Shown: positions 3,544 through 52,528 of the stretch, piece after piece
Layout: the number at the start of each line of letters is the position of its first letter
Numbering within the stretch: the stretch's first letter is position 1
Source of the DNA: Adineta ricciae
Lineage: Eukaryota > Rotifera > Eurotatoria > Adinetida > Adinetidae
DNA length: 64,000 nt
Reading direction: 5' to 3'
NCBI GenBank assembly: GCA_905250025.1
Contig: CAJNOJ010000003.1
Coordinates: forward strand, 971,032 to 1,035,031
Translations under genes and position numbers: made by a program
Notes under the pieces: generated by a model
Seen by the model: only the letters and a program-made list of their open reading frames with translations
What the model was told of the DNA's origin: nothing
Database searches by the model: none

Positions 3544-4452
3544 ATCGACCCCCGCTGAAAGTCAAGATCTCAAGACACAATTAAATACGTATTTTTTCCA
3601 CTTAGTAGTTATCAATAAACCGTAAGATGAAAGATCACAAGTGGTAAAACAGGCAATGATAAATTCAGCGTTTTTTTCTTTGTGGGAAAAAGTTGGCATG
3701 CGCAATAGGTCGTATATTTACATACTTAAAAAATACCCAGTTGGTCACCTGGAAACGTCATATGTGACAGGAATGAAACATGACAAAACATCGAGAGATC
3801 GTGAAATCAGTCTCGCTTTTTCATTCTTGTGTCAACTGAAACATTTTATAACACGTATCTTCTGAGAACAACACAGAAAACATTGTAAAATAAATAATAA
3901 TTGCATATGGGCTTGCCAACAAATATTCTTCTATATGCAAGCGCTTATGTACTGTCTAATTCCGAGAATTTTTGGCATATTTTAGTGGATTAATATTTAC
4001 CAAATGAATTCAATGGCATATACTCCCGTATTCTATTGTTTTTATTTTAAAGAGATTGAAATATGTGAGACACGAGACACATGAAGTATTTTTTGAATAG
4101 CCAATGAGTGTTTTATTTGGGATATTGTACACTTTTTCAAGCGAATATGCGTTAAATTCACCAAGAAAAGAACTACGTGTGTACAGTACAATTACATTCA
4201 TAATTATCTTTTTCTCAAAAGTTGACGGTACATTAAAACATCGCTAAATGTGCAATGCAACTCAACACACCAGACTTTCCCTATGAAATATAAGATTTCA
4301 ACTAGCAATGCAAGGCATATTACATGACATTCACTGATCAACGGAGCGTCGTAAAAGATTGAATATACAACTGTGAATTATGTCACGATTTTAGTACTAT
4401 ATTTTTCAGCGTTTCAGGACGATGAATTCATATTAGATACTCAAGAAGAGTA
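3544..4452. other. Intergenic, about 0.9 kb
   Basis: This separates two minus-strand genes. Short frames occur on both strands but show no family similarity and no splice-consistent continuation. It probably holds the helicase promoter and possibly a non-coding first exon, plus the 3' end of the WD40 gene. No clear TATA element was recognised. Confidence 0.4.
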
Positions 4453-5897
4453 TTAAGTATTTGGTAGCGTTTTTCTAAGTATAGATCGTGTTGTTGATGG
4501 TCGAGATGAAATTGTCGTCGAACTCTTTGCACTACTTTCTCGACTTGCGCGTCGTGATAATGTCGTGCGTTGCTTAGGTATTGATATCATTTCGCCGGTT
4601 GCGGGTTCACGTATGTGTTTTGTACGTTTTCGTGCTTTCGGATGTACACATTGATCGGCAAGTAGTTCATAAACAGCGCCGCCTACCAATAGACCGCCAT
4701 TTTCTGGTAGAAATCTCACGAAGCAGGTCAAATCATTGACAAGCTATTGCAATAAAACATGAACGTACAAGAACATCCTTTTAAACAAAGAAAATCTTAC
4801 CGAAAGTCGATGAATACAATCACCACTTAAGATATTCCAGACACAAACACTTTCGTCATCAACACTCGCTAGTATCGAGCCATCATCATTGTCACCATCA
4901 CGAAATGCTATCGCTTGAATCCATCCAATATGACCGAAAAGACGAGCATGTATTCGGGCACATTCGTTTTGCCAAATAATGATGATTTTATCCCAACCGG
5001 CAGATGCCTTCGAAGAAAAATCCATTCGAAAATAATCGTTTACACAGGGCTAAGAGATACGAACTAAGTAAGGTAACTTGGAAAAAGCCAGCGCACGAAC
5101 ATTTCCAAAATGGCCTTGAAGTATAGCAGGTACTACTGGCAATGGTTTATCAAAATTATACAAAAACACCGTGTTATCATGAGCACCAGTGGCCTGAGAA
5201 AGACACAGTTGCAATCAATCAGATGCAAATCTTTTTAAATTTACCATCAAATTCAAGCTTGGGTGAAAGGTTATTGATTGTACGGCATTTGTATGATGAT
5301 GAAAATCATACATTTGCTCTCCGGTCTATTGAATAAACAGACTGTTTTTACATTAGAATATATCGTTTCGATTTCTCACGATCACATTCCATAGTAATGT
5401 TCGACAATCCCATCCCCCACTTGCTATTAATTGACTATCATTTGAAAAGTGCAGACAATCCGCCGGGTGTGTATGGCCTGTTCAGTATTCAACGAAAAGT
5501 TCAACCGATGTGATACTCAAATACTTTTCTTACCGGAAAATGTGTACAGCAAGCAAGCTGTTCTGGTTTCATACAAACGTACGTTTGTATCGTTGGCCGT
5601 CGATGCGAAATAGCGATCATTATTTGAAATAGCCAATGCTCGAATAAGGCCTTGAGTTGTCAAAGAAAAACAAACTCACGTCGGTTGATTACAAAATTGT
5701 TGTGACATACCTGCATTTTCATGAATTTTAAATGTTAAATGATCGAACACTGTATTCCAAAGACGAATATATCCGTTGATTGACGCCGTCAAAAGTATCT
5801 CGAGATCATTGGAGAAAACAAGACAATTTATTTCATCATCATGTCCACCATATAACGCCAGACTACGGCTTGACAAGAATTTTCTTTTCGATTCCAT
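4453..5897 (-). CDS. WDR38: WD40-repeat protein, WDR38-like
   Basis: Seven WD40-type blades can be read after removing six introns of about 45-65 bp. The blades begin near residue 15 with GGHDDEINCLVF and include GHTHPADCLHF...GGWDCRTLLW, GHFGNVRALAF...SAGWDKIIIIW and GHIGWIQAIAF. The order and wording of the last three blades match human WDR38, which is expressed mainly in ciliated tissues; a ciliary role is inference. The intron between blade halves (about 4990-5045) first looked like a frame break, but a GTTCGT donor and a TTCGAAG acceptor restore 'FSKLPYL-ASAGWDK', so the gene appears intact. The C-terminus is a basic, Ser/Thr/Arg-rich tail of about 60 residues. The first in-frame ATG is at 5897, followed by a short lead-in to blade 1. 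Confidence 0.85.
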
Positions 5898-6152
5898 GTC
5901 TATACGAGTCGATCTGAATTATGATGTTGATTGTTATTTTTGTTCGTCGTCATTGCCGTTTAGAATGTTTTCATTCTTTCGTAAATTGAAGAAAGAGAAT
6001 TTGTGTTATGATGTAAAAAAAAGAGAGACTAGAGAAGTGTTGATTTTTCTTCTTGTTCGTATTGAATGCTTTTTAAGCGCACGTTTTCTCTCTTCATCCT
6101 CTCGGTTTATTTTAGCTTGATTATGTGATCTTTTTACGAAAACAATGTTTTA

Positions 6153-6890
6153 TTAAATAATTCCGTGTTTGACCTCTAGGTCAATTAGTTTATCGTTGAT
6201 ATTGTTGAAATACTGTAATCGTGCAAGAAGTTCTCGAGCTTTGGTTAAATCCATTTGATTCAAAGCAGTAGATAACTGTTTCATATGGTCATCGATCTCT
6301 TGTCGCATTTCGATGGCCAACTCCATCGGAAATGATTCGTTCTTGCTGATAATTTCGGCTAAGTCTTCGTTGATTTCCATAATCCGCATGAGGAAATCTG
6401 GCTCGAGTTGTACAGGCGACTCTTCTAAAGTGATGTTTTCTAATTTGAGTAAATAATGAGCACGTGCTAATGGCGATAGCAAAGTTTTGTACGCTTCATT
6501 CAATAAAGAAGATTGATCTTGAGAGTGTTGTTTTTCCGTCTATAAAATGAACGAGCCTTTCTCTTCTCAGAAGAGACTGGTGTGTTATCAGAATTACTTA
6601 CTTACATCAGATTTATTGGTAAACAGATCAGGATGTAGAAGCTTCATTTTGTTTCGAAAGATTCGCGTCAATTGTTTCGTATCGATTTCGAATGAGCGTG
6701 AGAAGTCAAATAGGCGAAAGTAGTCGAGTTCGGATCGGACTGGCAGTATGACATGTTTTTCGCACGGACAGTGAGTTTGACATTCGCTTCGGTCTACTTG
6801 CCGTTGACACTGCCAACATTGTTCAATCAAGGGTGTGTTCGTATTGAGTGACAATCGTGACGTGAGAAGGCTTGACCGTAAACTTTGCAA
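6153..6890 (-). CDS. HSCB: Mitochondrial iron-sulphur co-chaperone HscB
   Basis: HSCB is a J-protein that delivers the ISCU scaffold to mitochondrial HSPA9 for Fe-S cluster transfer. Two exons (6606-6890 and 6153-6539) join with the intron after KSD to give about 223 residues, close to the usual 230. The N-terminus is basic and Ser/Thr/Leu-rich, as expected of a matrix-targeting sequence. It is followed by a Cys-rich zinc-binding segment (CWQC ... CQTHCPC) typical of metazoan HSCB, then the J domain with the HPD motif in LLHPDLF, and the C-terminal three-helix HSCB domain (LNEAYKTLLSPLARAHYLL onward). Both splice sites fit (GTAAGT donor, TTTATAG acceptor). The gene lies between WDR38 and TRAPPC11 on the same strand. 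Confidence 0.95.
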
Positions 6891-7077
6891 AAGCGAATAT
6901 TCGGTATGTGAAAGACAGTCTGGTGAAAATCTTACCGATTTTGAAGTATTCTAGCAAACATCTAAAAACACATTTGTTCGCATGTTTAATCAAATCGAGT
7001 AAAAAGAGGCAAAATTTTTTATTACGAATAATCAAATCAATAATTTAGACAAAAAAGAACAAGAAACGAGTTGAAAT

Positions 7078-10000
7078 CTATTGGTCAGTTTTCAATGATG
7101 GAACAACAAAGATGTGAGTAGGCAAGGTTCTCTCAATTGATTCATCAATTTCTTGTGTTTGCGGTCGAATCATTGATATTTTAAATTTCGGTAGTTGCAC
7201 AAAGCCGCATAGCGTGGCAACTAATGTATAATTAACATCGGATGAACTATGCGGCGGAACAAGTAATGATGTCTAAAAATAGGCGAGTTTGCAGACTAGA
7301 ACATATTTCTTTGGAATTTCAAAGTTAATTACTAGTGTACTACCGGAAACAGCTACAACTAGATTGATTTGCTCGAGGTTGACTTTGTATTCGTGGACAA
7401 TATTCGAACGATTATGGATACGGTAATTGACTTGAAATGGTTCTTGTAATGGAACATGATTTGGAATTGCTACCTCAATGAAAATTTGTTGCTGTTCAAC
7501 ATTAAAGTCGGATAGAGAAAATGTCGTGCATAGTTCGGGAATTTGCGGATGACTAGATCTAGAATAATGACAGAATGGATGGAGTAAAAAAGCTGAGAAA
7601 TGAAAAGGATGCAACAGACCGTTTCCAGTATAAACTATATTCACCAACCAGAAGATTTTGTACCACAGGTGTAGCGATTGGTTGAGTACGAAGACAAAAG
7701 CCTTCAGTTACTACTTCATCTAGTTTTAATTGAGCTAGAAAAAAAAATGCACGGATGGAAATGGACGCTCAATGATGTGCATAGCAAAGAACACTTACTA
7801 TTGTTGATCTGTGATTCAATGGCGCATTCGTTAACGATGAATTGACTCTAGATGAAAAAGAAGTTGGTCAAAGATTGGGATTCAATTGTTTCCGAAGAGA
7901 AATTTTTACTTACAGGTTTCAAATTACTACTAACAATCGTAATTGGAATTGCTGATGTACATTTTGTATCAATCATTAAAATAAATGGCTCTTGAGCATG
8001 TAAGGACGCTAAAGGTTCCATCTAGAATCACAATATTGACATCGATTTGTCAATATAGTCCTGAAGATCTTTACCATCATTCCCATCGTCTGAAATTGTA
8101 TTGAAAATGGATTAACCACGCTAAGAGGAACAGTTATTTCTTTCATACAATGCAAATTTAATCGTTCATAGGAGAGCTAAAATCAATTGAAGATTTCAAT
8201 GCTCAGTTTCTCATTATCATATCAAACAAACCCGAATAATAATCTCTCGAGAACGATTGCTGTTACATCGAACGTACAAATCTTGTTCGATCTTGAATAT
8301 AGAAGCAAACAAAGATTTGAATGAATGAATGAGCTCTCCTTTTTCATTTCGTACTTCAGTATCTTTATTGATTGTCTCCAATGTCATTGAACAAATGCTT
8401 GTTGTGGTCTCATTGTTACTGTCTGCCGTTGAATAAAAAAGAAAAGCTAGAAAATTAAACAAAATACAAAGATATGAGAGTAAACATTGCAAATGCATAT
8501 TTACTGTCATCCAATGTTTGAGAAGTATCATCTGTATTGGAACAAGTACACGTCAAGCTGCAAAAGAAAATGTTTGTGAGATAAACTTAATTCTGCTGAT
8601 GATTAAAAAGCGCGTTACGTTGCATTGTGTATGTCCACATTTTCATGATTCTTTATACGAATTTTGATTGGATATGATTCGTAGAGTAGAACTGGCAGTT
8701 GATGTTCAATACTCAGCTGTACTTCTGCGGCTCTCATGAGTATACTAAACAGCATTGATGGAAATTGACTATATGTTTGTCTTTTCAATTCTTTTTTCTA
8801 CTTTGTTTTTCGTCGCATTGGTAAATTTTCCCATAAGACATGTCCCGCCTTCGTTCGCCATTTCGGAGTCAATGTTGTTGGTTGGAAAGTTGGAATTGCG
8901 TGTAAACTATTTCGCCATTGTAGATCAATACATGTTTGATTCGCATTTCCATAAATCAATGAAACATATGCAACCTAAATCAAGTTATTAAAGAGCTGGA
9001 GGATTTCTCCCCCGTCCCTCCTGTCTCTCTCTCTTACTTCGAGTGATCGCTGAATATGATCATTCTTCGGGTTGAAATTAAACGATAGAATTCGTTGTTC
9101 ATTTGGAGCGAATGTTAATTGCTTAGGATCTGTCACACAGACGAGTCCATCATATTCTTTTAGACTGAATGAGACTGACAACTGATTGAATTCGATCGGT
9201 AACGGGAAGCCATTTCTACGTTATTTATGTAACAATAGAGGTTATCATCGATAATTTTTATCTTACTTAAGTGCAACTTGTAATGTTATTTCACAATCAA
9301 CTGATACAGCTTCATGAGTGAAGTAGACTTTACATTCGACTAGAACAAAGAATTCGATATGAAATAATCGATTTCTAAAAGATTATATCGTCGTACATAG
9401 TCCTTTGAGTGTGTCAGCGTCAATATTGATCGTTTGTTTGACTAATTGTACTTTCCATTTGTCATCGTTCGATGGTATAGTAGATTCAACTTGCGGTGGA
9501 AGACTCTTTAAATCAAATTTTGAAAATGAAGTAAAAGCGTGAATTTCTTCTTTACCTTCCGAAGCAAATTTTCTAAATTAGTTTGAGTTTGTGTCTTGAC
9601 TTGAACGGGTAAATTGATATCTAGATCAATGAATATATCGTTACCTTTGAATAGAAATAGATATGTTCATACTTGGATTCAGTATCTCCAAACTAAACCG
9701 TATCCAATTCTCTAGATTGGCACTTAAATATGCACATCTTTATTCGAGAAAAGCAGAAGACAAATAAATATTCATGATTCTATGCATATCAATCATAATT
9801 TACTTCAATGCAGATGGTAAGATCGATTTTAGAATCGGCCACCATTGTTCTGCACGATAAGCTTGAACAATATGGTTGTAATAACTAAATAATGAAAGTA
9901 CACGGCGTGTTTATCGTGTTCGATGTCATCACTACTTTAAAGCTTTGTCATAGTCTTTGCTTGAAGCATATTCTTCAGCTAAGTCATACACTAAAAGAAA

Positions 10001-47481: not shown

Positions 47482-49520
47482 TATCGTTTAAACGAAGAAG
47501 GAAAANCTTTAGGTCATCGATGGAATACGCCCGATTGTTCGACAGTCGATACACGACGTCATTTTCTGGAAAGATGCATCAATCAATTGAATGAAACATT
47601 GAATGATACAATGGCTTATTTACCAATCAATTATAATGAACAAACATCGTTTGAGGGAAAGGCACTCTATGAAAATTGTTCGGAAAAATTAACCCAACAA
47701 CGAATCGTGTCACCGTCGCAAGAATATTTCCAGTAAAGAGAGATCCATTGCTTGGATTTGAAATGATGGAAACGAATTGTCTTTTAGTTTACAAGTGTAC
47801 CGTCTGAATCAAACACGTAATCTGACTTTAGAACATCCTGGCAATGTTAACTGGGAAAATGTCGGATGTCTTGCTTTGATCTATCTGATCTGCTATTTTT
47901 CAATGTGGAAAGGAGTCAAAACATCAGGCAAGGTACGTTTGCCAACAACTAAACATTCGTCTCTTAAATTTTTTTCTCGCTCAACTCATCGAAATTCTAT
48001 TCTTCAAGGTTGTCTGGTTCACGGCACTGTTTCCCTATGTTGTATTGACAATACTGATGATACGTGGTCTTTTCCTGAATGGATCAATGAAAGGCATCGA
48101 ATATTATATACGTCCGGATTTAAGTAAACTCAGTGAAGCATCAGTCTGGGTTGATGCCGCATCACAAACATTCTTTTCTTTGGGACCTGGTTTCGGCGTC
48201 CTAATGGCATTTGCAAGTTACAATGATTTTCATCATAACGTTTTTCGGTATGAAAGAACGATTGGTTTCTCGCGAAATAGATGCACCATTCATTTTTAGC
48301 GATGCAATGATCACAGTTGCAGTCAATAGTTTAACAAGTTTTGCCAGTGGCTTCGTCATCTTCATGTTTCTAGTAGGAGAGATTCTTATTTGCAAAATTT
48401 TACTTGGAATTCGTTTTCCTTTGTCAAGGGTTACATGAGCGAAATCTCTGGACGAGCCATAAAAGATGTTGCTGAACAAGGTTCGACCCTTGTATTTATT
48501 GTCTATCCGGAAGCGATCGCTACAATGCCATGGGCGCCTGTTTGGGCGGTATTCTTTTTCTTAATGTTATTAACACTTGGTTTAGATTCATCGGTGCGTA
48601 TTATGTTGTGTCTTGTGAATTGAAAACGCTTTGTTTGGTCTTTTCCTGATTTCTAGTTTGGCGGAAGCGAGGCAATAATAACTGCCTTGAGTGACGAATT
48701 TCCGGTTCTCCGACGACATCGAGAATGGTTTGTTGGTATATTATTTTTCTTCTATTTTCTCATTGGAATACCGAGTTGTACTGACGCTGGAGTTTATTTC
48801 GTCGAATTACTACAAAACTATGCTGGTAACTAAAAGCGAAAGCTTGAAACACTACTTTTCTGTTTACATTCGTTCTGTCCTTGACTTTCAGCATTTTATT
48901 CCATCATCATTGCTGTCTTTTTCGAAGCTATAGCGGTATCTTGGCTCTATGGAATACGGCGTATAAGCGAGGATGTCAAACAAATGCTCGGCTCCAAACC
49001 TGGACGATTTTGGCTGGGAACATGGTGTATTGCTGCACCTGTTTTTCTTGGAGTAATGATGATCATCTACCGAAACTTTCTTGCGTACTAAATTTCTTCA
49101 CATTAGGGTATCATTTTATCGGGCTTAATCCAACACAGTAGTCCGACATATGGAAAACCAACGGATCCGTTTTTCTACGAGGTTCGTACTTTTCTTTATC
49201 TCCGAACTGTATGAATTCACGAGTATGTTGTGTCTAGTATCCGACATGGAGTCATTTACTTGGTTGGATGTTTGCTTTATCGTCGGTAATATTTATTCCA
49301 GCCGTTGCTATTTATCAATTATTAATAGAACAAGGAAGTTTAGCTAATGTAAGAATAGACTTTCTTGAATGAGTCGATATGCATTTTCCTTCTTTCTAAA
49401 TTCATTTAGAGATTTCATATGGCAATTACACCGTGGAAAGAACGAGCAAATGCAAATCAAGATGTCCTAGTTAGTACCAATCATGTAGCAACAAAATACA
49501 TTACGGAAGAAACGATTTAA
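47482..49520 (+). CDS. SLC6 neurotransmitter transporter, monoamine-type, 5'-truncated
   Basis: Na+/Cl- coupled plasma-membrane symporter family. Readable exons begin in extracellular loop 2 ([12 protein letters not shown], Asn-glycosylation sites, EYFQ) and continue with [116 protein letters not shown] and [18 protein letters not shown]. The last helix and tail end in [15 protein letters not shown] and a TAA at 49518-49520. The closest matches from memory are the dopamine, noradrenaline and serotonin transporters. Helices 4-12 are present and GT-AG introns keep frame. Helices 1-3, which hold the sodium sites and the amine-binding Asp region, are missing from the window, so no start codon can be given. 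A single N at 47507 lies in the first exon. Confidence 0.85.
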
Positions 49521-50184
49521 TAGATATTTTTTTAGAATATTTTGCCTACTCCAACTTTATAATAATCTTTTTCTCTTCTCGTTTTCTTATCATTCTTTGT
49601 ATCTGTTGTTTGTATACGCGTCTATTTCTTTTCTCCTCTGAACACCAACTCTCATTCTCTCATTTCACATTAGCATATTTCAATTTCGGCAAGGTCATTC
49701 GTATACGTCATTGATCTCTTTTATTTTCAAAGAAAACTCGCACTCGAATTCTTCTCTTTACTAATCTCGGCTAATACAGGGCCGTGCGAAAAAAAAAGAA
49801 CTCGAATCAAATCCTTGCCTAAGGTTATCACTCTTTTGTTTGATTACTTATGTCATCTTTTCTCAATCAAACACAACGTCTTGTATCATCATTTCAACTA
49901 TGTTAACATTTGAACAGGATCAACTTGTGCATACATTTCGCATTCAATCGATCGACCTACTTTGCATAAGATGAAAAAAGATCGCTGATCATTGTCATTA
50001 AAATCATTTGAGAAAAAATACGTCTTTTGAGTAGGAGAAGTTCTGTTTTATTCACCGATGAAGGTAAGGCAAATTGATTACGCTTGAAACAATGAAATTA
50101 TGAAAGAAGTACAATTTAGATTTTTCTATTTCTTGCTTGCCTTCATTTGCTTTGTTTTTCTTTGATCAATGCTGGTAAATAAGA
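49521..50184. other. Intergenic, about 0.65 kb
   Basis: T- and pyrimidine-rich sequence after the SLC6 stop, with no coding potential. It contains the promoter of the EGF-Hint gene; no definite TATA element was recognised. Confidence 0.45.
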
Positions 50185-52528
50185 ATGTTCAGGAAGTGGC
50201 TTTTCTTGTTATTGTTCTCTTTTCTTGAAGACTTTTGCGAAACAGACGACTGTCGTCGTGGTGATTGTGAATTAGTACGGCAACCTACAGGTTTAATAAA
50301 GAAAAATTGTCATTGTGCAAAAGTAAATAGTTCAACCGGATTTTGAGGTCATCGATTGAGCTTTATTGTCTAGGGTGTTTGTGGTGAGACATGCCAACGT
50401 TTGTGTAATACTACATCCGCATGTGATGCGAATCCATGTTGGTTTGGTGGTATTTGTGTTGACGTTGCCAATTTCGATCATGTTTGTCTCTGTCCACCGA
50501 ATCATTCTGGTAAAGACTGCCGAGTTTTACTTTCGTGCCAAGCCAACAGTTGTTGGAACGGTGGTATCTGTATCGAAACTGGTCTGTGGAAGGAAACGTG
50601 TCCTGTTAAACATGAACATATGCCCGTTTCTCTTTTAGCGTATGGTGCACGTTGTAACTGCTCGGGTGGCTATTCGGGTGAATATTGTCAATATAAAACG
50701 GCTAAATCAACATCAGCACCAAAACGAAATGGAACATTACCACGTGTTGAATATAAGCAATTTGACGCGGAAACATTAGCAGTCATTGCGACTTTAGGAA
50801 ATGCAGCTAATGATGAACCAGCACAGCGAACTGGTGATTTGAGTGAAAATGTAGTTGTTGCGTCGGGTAACCATTCGCAATTTGTTTTCTGCTTAACTAA
50901 TCCATGTGAAAATGGTGGAACTTGTTTTGTTACAAACACCGCAACAACCAAAGTGCGATTTTCTATACAGAGAGAGAGAGAGAGAGAAATTAGAATGTTT
51001 GTTTTTGTTCTAACTTTTGCTAGGGCATTTGCGTTTGCCGTGATGGTTATGTGGGAGATTATTGTGAAGTGTTGTTTAATACGACATCTCCGACATTTCG
51101 ATTTCCAACCGGTTATTGTTCATCGAGTCCATGCTTGAATGATGGCTCTTGCGTTGAAGTCGGAGAGCTTCAAGGTTACTGTCGATGCACAGCTGAATAT
51201 CGAGGTCTCTACTGTGAAATATCGGTTCGAGCTGTGAGCTGTAATCCAAATCCTTGGTAAGAAACTACTTCTAATAGAGTGATTTCCGAATTCGTACATT
51301 TTACTGTAGTAAAAATGGTGGAACGTGTGTTCTGTTGGAAAATAATCAAGGTAAGGAATGAAATATGTTCAGATGTAATTCTTATTGAAACTTTGCTTAG
51401 CACAATGTCTATGCACGCCAGTATTTCGTGGTTTAACTTGTAATCAATTTAGTTACGTGCCTTGCGGCGACGCCACATGTCACGGAACACAAGTAAGATA
51501 AGAAATATCGTGGAAAAGATTTGCTTAAATTTTCTTCTAGGGCGTTTGTGTAGCTAATAAGTGTATCTGCAAAACAGGTTTTGCTGGGCCAAGATGTGAC
51601 TCAACAGACTTTTGTTCAGCATTTCCGTGCTTGAACGGAGGTTTGCTTAATTTCAAATAGATATGAAATATCACAATATTCTCATTTTTAGGTACTTGTA
51701 TTCGAACAAATGAAGAACCCTACGGCGGTTGCAGTTGTCCACCGGAATTTTCCGGACCTACGTGTAGTAACGATCCATGCACCCCATCGCCATGCTTGAA
51801 CGGCGGTTATTGTATACGAAAACCAGATAATCAATTTTACTGTCAATGTCGAAATAAGAATAAAGGCGTTTATTGTGAACGTACGTTACTTTTGAGTATA
51901 ATTGAGTTACAATCTTTTCTATTTAGAGGTGGAATGTTTTCCATCGGATGCAACTGTCGACGTTCTGAACAATGGCAAAGTTGCCTTGTCATCTTTACAA
52001 GTCGGCACACAAGTTCGTGTGATCAACAATCAAGGTCAAATCAGTTATTCACCGATTATTGCTTTTCTTCACCGTGATGTCAATGAACATGCGCTGTACA
52101 AACATATTCGTACGAAGACATCGTTCATCGAATTGTCACGACGTCATCTCATTCATCGTCGTAAAGACGGTTTCGTTTGGGCAGAGAAATTAGCCGTAGG
52201 TGATGAAATTCTCGTTTCCACATCTTCACATACAAACGAAACTCAATGGGAGGTGATTAATGAAATCAATGATGTCGTCAAACAAGGTCTTATGGCTCCG
52301 TTAACTGAACAAGGTACAATCATTGTGAATAATGTTCATGCATCTTGTTATGCACTGGTCAAATCACATCAAGTCGCCCATTTTGCATTGGCACCCTACC
52401 GACTCTACCATCGATTGTTTGGTTCTCTCTTACAAAGGCATCCAATGACGACGCCTATTCTTTCTTATGCAAATGTTCTCCTACATTTCTTCAAGAACTT
52501 ACCTGTTGCAAAAGACCTGATATTCTAA
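50185..52528 (+). CDS. EGF-repeat protein with C-terminal Hedgehog-type Hint (Hog) domain
   Basis: Nine exons encode about 630 residues. ATG 50185 starts a signal peptide (MFRKWLFLLLFSFL). After a Cys-rich lead come eight EGF-like modules of Notch/Delta type, such as CDANPCWFGGICVDVANFDH, CLTNPCENGGTC, CSSSPCLNDGSC, CSAFPCLNGGTC and CTPSPCLNGGYC. Between EGF modules 3 and 4 lies a non-EGF linker of about 60 residues. The last 197 residues (from Cys 51935-51937) form a Hint domain of the Hedgehog class: CFPSDATV, VGTQVRVINNQGQISYS, SRRHLIH, APLTEQGTIIVNNVHASCYA and VAHFALAPYRLYHRLF. Hedgehog's own N-terminal signalling domain is absent. Hedgehog Hint domains cleave themselves off and attach cholesterol to the released part; here the EGF region would be the cargo. 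Residue 46 is His instead of Asp, and residue -1 is Glu instead of Gly, so the chemistry may differ. All introns are about 50 bp with GT-AG ends. Confidence 0.9.
50969..50987. repeat. (AG)n microsatellite in an EGF-Hint intron
   Basis: About nine AG dinucleotides lie inside the intron between EGF module 4 exons, close to its 5' splice site. Confidence 0.8.
51927..52528 (+). other. Hint/Hog autoprocessing domain exon
   Basis: This exon supplies the whole Hint domain plus the two residues before it, so exon and domain borders coincide, as expected for exon shuffling. Nucleophile Cys at 51935-51937; His at position 46 (52070-52072); Ser/His of the T-x-x-H-like motif at 52136-52138 and 52145-52147. 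The sterol-recognition-like tail is shorter than in Hedgehog, with SYANVLLHFFKNL in place of the usual HWYA-containing helix. Confidence 0.88.

Follow-up and report, generated by a model that had tools for sequence, protein, structure and literature searches.

In the making of Hedgehog proteins, the Hint domain cuts itself from the precursor and attaches a lipid to the part released. Whether Hint lipid tagging in animals extends past Hedgehog is the question raised by a gene of the bdelloid rotifer Adineta ricciae, in which an array of epidermal growth factor (EGF) modules runs into a Hedgehog-class Hint domain. The gene lies in a 64,000-nucleotide stretch of contig CAJNOJ010000003.1 (positions 971,032 to 1,035,031, forward strand), hereafter the window. 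Its product is probably a secreted precursor of the Hog family, which would cleave itself at a Glu-Cys bond and esterify a sterol or similar lipid to the EGF part. The EGF-Hint family offers a clean test, with a well-understood modular cargo, catalytic residues fixed in the rows seen and a retained sterol-helix motif. The predicted general base is the same His that was placed in fly Hedgehog (Hh) in the laboratory, where sterol use widened (PMC8529194), and also at stake is whether nature uses this chemistry, based on His at position 46 (His46).

Results

Gene model and domain architecture

The window DNA was read and spliced, and the model was then corrected by placing the A. ricciae protein P0066 on the window. 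The resulting gene has 11 exons with GT-AG introns throughout (Table 1) and encodes 643 amino acids; in a gap-free alignment of all 643 positions, identity to P0066 is 97.98%. The product begins with a signal peptide and a Cys-rich module. Eight EGF modules of six Cys each follow, the second and third of them separated by a linker free of Cys, and after these come the residues E-Q-V-E, the first Cys of the Hint domain (Cys1) and a tail resembling the sterol-recognition region (SRR). As judged by reading and by the match to P0066, the signal peptide (MKIFLFLACLHLLCFSLINA) is encoded by exons 1 and 2, and tblastn places P0066 residues 3-20 at 50120-50173 with 88.9% identity. The original prediction, made from the DNA letters alone, had recognised a signal peptide but wrongly started it at 50185, and had overlooked the intron at 50582-50638.

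Pfam analysis identified the Hint domain (PF01079, 147.7 bits, E 4.7e-43) at residues 439-631 and EGF (PF00008, 90.8 bits) in seven stretches within an E limit of 1, while reading gave eight regular six-Cys modules and the one Cys-rich module preceding them. Shuffling of the same residues yielded at most four non-overlapping EGF patterns in 2000 trials, compared with seven in the protein, and the best family-profile score for the Hint part in 2000 shuffles was 8.7 bits. CFPSDATV at the Hint start and the HASCYA block are both present. The combination of an EGF array and a complete Hedgehog-class Hint in one protein, the count of eight modules and these two motifs are as originally predicted, apart from the additional Cys-rich module; so is the lack of a Hedge domain (PF01085), which gave no match in the window protein (Pfam, E up to 1). 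No transmembrane segment other than the signal peptide was seen by eye. An intein, by definition, ends in His-Asn and is followed by a C-extein to which it splices; neither feature was found on reading the window protein, which has a SCYA motif and a tail ending in LIF-stop instead.

The EGF-Hint join and its conservation

It is highly improbable that the EGF and Hint exons belong to two genes with different transcripts, joined by gene predictors. Predictors do merge neighbours here, since the partial relatives P0071 and P0072 were both fused, probably wrongly, to an upstream sodium:neurotransmitter symporter (SNF), and the join rests on DNA and protein records. However, the EGF8-Hint join at 51880/51927, which the original prediction had placed correctly, is the same, and free of gaps, in all seven public relatives that carry EGF and Hint in one protein (P0066-P0072; 7 of 539 candidates). 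These come from A. ricciae (two), A. steineri, Rotaria sp. Silwood1 and Silwood2, and Didymodactylos carnosus, the seventh being P0067. P0067 is an uninterrupted 639-residue frame on a single 2064-base contig; with 1920 bases taken up by coding sequence, ten introns would have to fit into 144 bases or fewer, which makes a spliced transcript the very probable source of the contig. The Hint frame of the window (51902-52528) has no Met ahead of Cys1, and the intron before it is in phase 1, three residues ahead of Cys1. We consider it very probable that the EGF and Hint exons are joined in one gene. Because Hint and tail occupy a single terminal exon after this phase-1 intron, the structure fits an EGF gene that may have acquired a Hint exon by shuffling.

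EGF-Hint is a conserved gene family across three named bdelloid genera, beyond a single gene model. A second genomic copy (L009, contig C8) pairs with P0069 in a tree of 44 rows, where the eight EGF-Hint rows group in a single clade (100/99); a second EGF-Hint type described below and fly Hh are long branches of unsure placement, and P0090 and P0091 are thinly filled. The Hint exons of the window and L009 share 66.7% amino acid identity, with a synonymous difference of 0.77, which is saturated, and a non-synonymous difference of 0.215; on this comparison the Hint exon is under purifying selection. Beyond rotifers no EGF-Hint was found, the named matches being all bdelloid and many rows nameless (65 of 121, 7 of 539 and at least 25 of 7989 scored); as the searches pick up only sequences that have exact words in common and fall within a length limit, this does not show absence outside bdelloids. 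Public records label these proteins "unnamed protein product" or "EGF-like domain-containing protein".

Active site and tail residues

Conservation was counted in an alignment of 66 rows (65 proteins and the window), as rows with a residue at the position. Cys1 (50/50), His46 (61/61), the block-B His (65/65) and the SCYA Cys (63/63) are invariant. Residue -1, directly before Cys1, is Glu in 49 of 50 rows and Ala in one, and the block-B Thr position is Ser in 64 of 65 and His in one; both odd residues belong to the distant row P0065. His46 and the Glu at -1 are new observations, absent from the original prediction.

Comparison by SHH residue numbers used a second alignment (A1) of 51 of the 65 proteins and the window, from which P0065 was dropped to leave 51 rows. 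SCY and H-P-R are each present in 51/51. Invariant and identical to SHH are L242, H270, L271, L348, S362, C363, Y364, H374, P379, R381 and Y435, while five positions are fixed to another residue: -1 (Glu), L239 (Ile), D243 (His), T267 (Ser) and H433 (Leu). In the second tail helix we take SHH HWY, by eye, to pair with L-S-Y of the window. In the first tail helix, SHH numbers follow the SHH residues in the alignment with SHH and PMC7906309. According to the latter, SHH cholesterolysis in cells needs H374, P379, R381, L382, L386, L390 and F380, as well as the interface residues L239, L242, L271, L348, Y364 and I367; the window protein matches these except at L239 (Ile), I367 (Val) and F380 (Tyr).

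At its start, the tail of the window protein aligns with those of fly Hh and SHH; the K and L motifs of the tail are described as occurring mainly in Hh proteins (PMC2362128). In a fold comparison, the predicted structure gave as its top match the fly Hh D46H mutant (PDB 6tyy), tied with the wild type. This laboratory mutant likewise has His at 46, where the His of the rotifer family is natural and fixed, and it remains active with broader sterol use (PMC8529194, citing Zhao et al. 2019).

Position 46 in other Hint genes

That natural His46 might be unique to the window gene was considered and rejected, as His occupies the site in 16 of 17 other rows covering it (window and fly Hh excluded), the one Asp being in the partial row L031. 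Fourteen of the 17 are other Hint loci of the genome (13 with His), and the rest are P0058 and L009 (EGF-Hint), and P0065; ten rows without that half of the domain were left uncounted (L014 and L016 twice each, L017-L021 and L029). In another set of 25 Hint proteins, which again includes P0065 and reached neither Hh nor nematode Hogs, seven have His46 (P0065, P0073-P0075 and P0077-P0079); these are Hint proteins of 289-293 residues, with His at the block-B Thr position. The other 18 of the 25 have Phe or Tyr in that column and His two residues further, and the alignment brings the shifted His into register for L027 and L028, relatives of those 18.

Proposed mechanism and alternatives

After removal of the signal peptide and folding of the EGF part, Cys1 would attack the Glu-Cys bond in an N-S acyl shift assisted by the block-B His, forming a thioester immediately after EGF 8, with four residues from the last EGF Cys to the predicted cut. 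The SRR-like tail would bind a sterol or similar lipid alcohol, and His46, standing where Hh has Asp46, would activate this alcohol to resolve the thioester; the Hint-tail part would leave, and the EGF protein would keep the ester at its C-terminal Glu. Bound to membrane or matrix, the lipidated protein may then act in adhesion or as a signal over short distances. The original prediction had proposed cleavage ahead of the Hint Cys, which is supported as a prediction, and release of the EGF part as a possibly lipid-tagged signal, for which the tagging is plausible because the H-P-R of the sterol helix is invariant. Its comparison with Notch ligands was rejected: the DSL family gave no match in the seven proteins (Pfam, E up to 1), and where the EGF part matched chains of Delta and Notch, this is in our view the generic similarity among EGF modules.

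Several observations weigh against the proposed mechanism. His46 is present in L013 and L015, both without the Pro of H-P-R, and is therefore by itself no sign of sterol transfer. The W372 and W434 equivalents are replaced (W372 by V, I, L or A in 51/51), the HWY hinge retains its Tyr alone, and L382, L386 and L390, although Leu in the window, vary in the family, as does I442. The outer tail is modelled poorly, with a predicted local distance difference test score of 65 falling to 49 from residue 161 on, so that a sterol site is not visible in the model. An acidic -1 residue favours side cleavage in inteins; here it is Glu, unlike the G-C-F site described for Hh (PMC9695228). Cleavage and adduct are themselves sequence-level predictions. 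Because of the -1 Glu and a hinge kept only in part, the main rival is hydrolysis, in which water, perhaps aided by that Glu, would resolve the thioester and yield a soluble, lipid-free EGF protein. The lost W372 equivalent would also suit this reaction, but H-P-R and the L348, Y364 and Y435 equivalents, invariant in the family, would be superfluous for hydrolysis alone, and we judge it unlikely. Less probable still is a catalytically dead Hint, which would be no more than the last module of a secreted EGF protein that stays whole: the domain departs from Hh at three sites, -1, position 46 and block B (Thr to Ser), yet Cys1, the block-B His and SCYA are invariant in the covering rows, the exon is under purifying selection, and the fly mutant with His at 46 is active (PMC8529194).

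Comparison with known systems

With the Hog domain of Hedgehog (Hh, SHH), the window protein shares the predicted Hint fold, Cys1, the block-B His, SCYA, H-P-R and the Tyr of the second tail helix. It differs in lacking the Hedge domain and the combination of Gly at -1 with Asp at 46 that mark a Hedgehog ligand, having Glu and His there, and in block-B Ser for Thr and the hinge cut from HWY to L-S-Y. A Hedgehog-class Hint with Cys1, SCYA (motif J) followed by an adduct- or sterol-recognition region, and a secreted N-terminus other than Hedge place it among Hog proteins. The nematode and cnidarian Hogs (warthog, groundhog, quahog and others) likewise have a signal peptide, a non-Hedge N-terminus and a C-terminal Hog, whereas the N-terminus here is a recognisable EGF array; the nematode proteins were compared by their description (PMC2362128). 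In the available text of that paper (Bürglin 2008), many Hog proteins have private N-termini, GmGIN1 and Hoglet, both of lower eukaryotes, are the only ones named as carrying other distinct N-terminal domains, and EGF is mentioned twice, both times for a Hedge-VWA-cadherin protein without Hint. Lophohog of molluscs and annelids is also a spiralian Hog without Hedge, but is set apart by its own unique N-terminal domain, as described (PMC9695228, PMC5103448). Hedgling, a Hedgehog-related protein that can contain EGF modules, is the reverse combination: it joins Hedge to VWA, cadherin and, in some cases, EGF, and lacks Hint (PMC2362128, PMC4054682). No paper recognisably on EGF-Hint or rotifer Hint was among the matches listed from the open-access literature. 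EGF-Hint is a real and conserved Hog-class member with a new cargo and, as far as could be seen from these searches, an undescribed one.

Hint genes elsewhere in the genome

The genome searched comprised 130 Mb in 1033 contigs. A Hint profile gave 79 matches, or about 55 loci by hand count, partly arranged as tandem pairs (C104, C191, C208 and C273). No Hedge domain was matched at E up to 10, a weak negative since control genomes also gave none, and there were 18 matches to Patched-class proteins, a class wider than Patched itself. The surroundings of about 34 Hint loci were examined (33 in 29 regions, and the window). By Cys-pattern scan, EGF modules run into Hint at four of these, namely the window, L009, L022 and L034; at L030, a distance of about 4.5 kb separates upstream EGF modules from the Hint. 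Other Hint genes that were read have either a signal peptide with a short stretch of Cys residues or a Thr-rich stalk with a membrane segment. L022 and L034 represent a second EGF-Hint type, each with at least 17 short EGF modules before a divergent Hint that has CYF, MMH and T-x-x-H and lacks the SCYA Cys, with exon joins as predicted by reading. We tentatively suggest, as a possibility short of even odds, that bdelloids, having lost the Hedgehog ligand, retained and expanded Hint, whose natural His46, with broad sterol tolerance, would lipid-anchor EGF-array adhesion or signalling proteins, and that EGF-Hint arose at least twice here, once as the window type and once as the L022/L034 type.

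Table 1 Features of the EGF-Hint gene and related loci. Positions refer to the window, except in the last row, which concerns loci elsewhere in the genome; those of the scissile bond, His46, block B, SCYA Cys and H-P-R were derived by hand.
Feature	Position	Strand	Basis or remark
Exon 1, start ATG AAG	50058..50063	+	Join yields MKIFLFLACLHLLCFSLINA, resembling P0066 start; donor gtaagg
Exon 2, remainder of signal peptide	50120..50174	+	tblastn of P0066, spliced model
Exon 3, bulk of N-terminal Cys-rich module	50231..50322	+	P0066 placement, spliced model
Exon 4, Cys-rich module end, EGF 1, EGF 2 start	50374..50581	+	P0066 placement, spliced model
Exon 5, EGF 2 end, Cys-free linker, EGF 3 start	50639..50952	+	Spliced model
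Exon 6, EGF 3 end, EGF 4, EGF 5 start	51024..51256	+	Spliced model
Exon 7, EGF 5 middle	51310..51350	+	Spliced model
Exon 8, EGF 5 end, EGF 6 start	51401..51492	+	Spliced model
Exon 9, EGF 6 end, EGF 7 start	51541..51640	+	Spliced model
Exon 10, EGF 7 end, EGF 8, last residues GVYCE	51692..51880	+	Spliced model
Exon 11, QVE, entire Hint domain, SRR-like tail, stop TAA	51927..52528	+	Spliced model, Pfam, alignment, structure model
Predicted scissile bond Glu(-1)/Cys1	51932..51937	+	Family alignment
His46 codon (Asp46 of fly Hh, D243 of SHH)	52070..52072	+	Family alignment
Block B S-x-x-H (Hh: T-x-x-H)	52136..52147	+	S 51/51, H 51/51
Cys of SCYA (C143 in fly numbering, C363 of SHH)	52346..52348	+	C 51/51
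H-P-R motif, first SRR helix	52379..52402	+	H, P and R each 51/51
Separate neighbour gene, SNF exons	48009..49520	+	P0071 residues 1-303 match 48009-49472
Second EGF-Hint type	L022: about 4300-7550; L034: same	L022 reverse; L034 plus	Two genomic copies

The SNF gene upstream in the window ends at a stop codon read at 49518-49520, and P0071 carries PF00209; with the transporter upstream here as in P0071 and P0072, the neighbourhood is conserved. L027 and L028 resemble P0076 and P0093 in their topology, judged by reading: a membrane segment and a long stalk rich in Thr precede the Hint. In P0088, from Rotaria sp. Silwood1, PF08022 and PF08030 are fused to Hint, which may be a prediction error.
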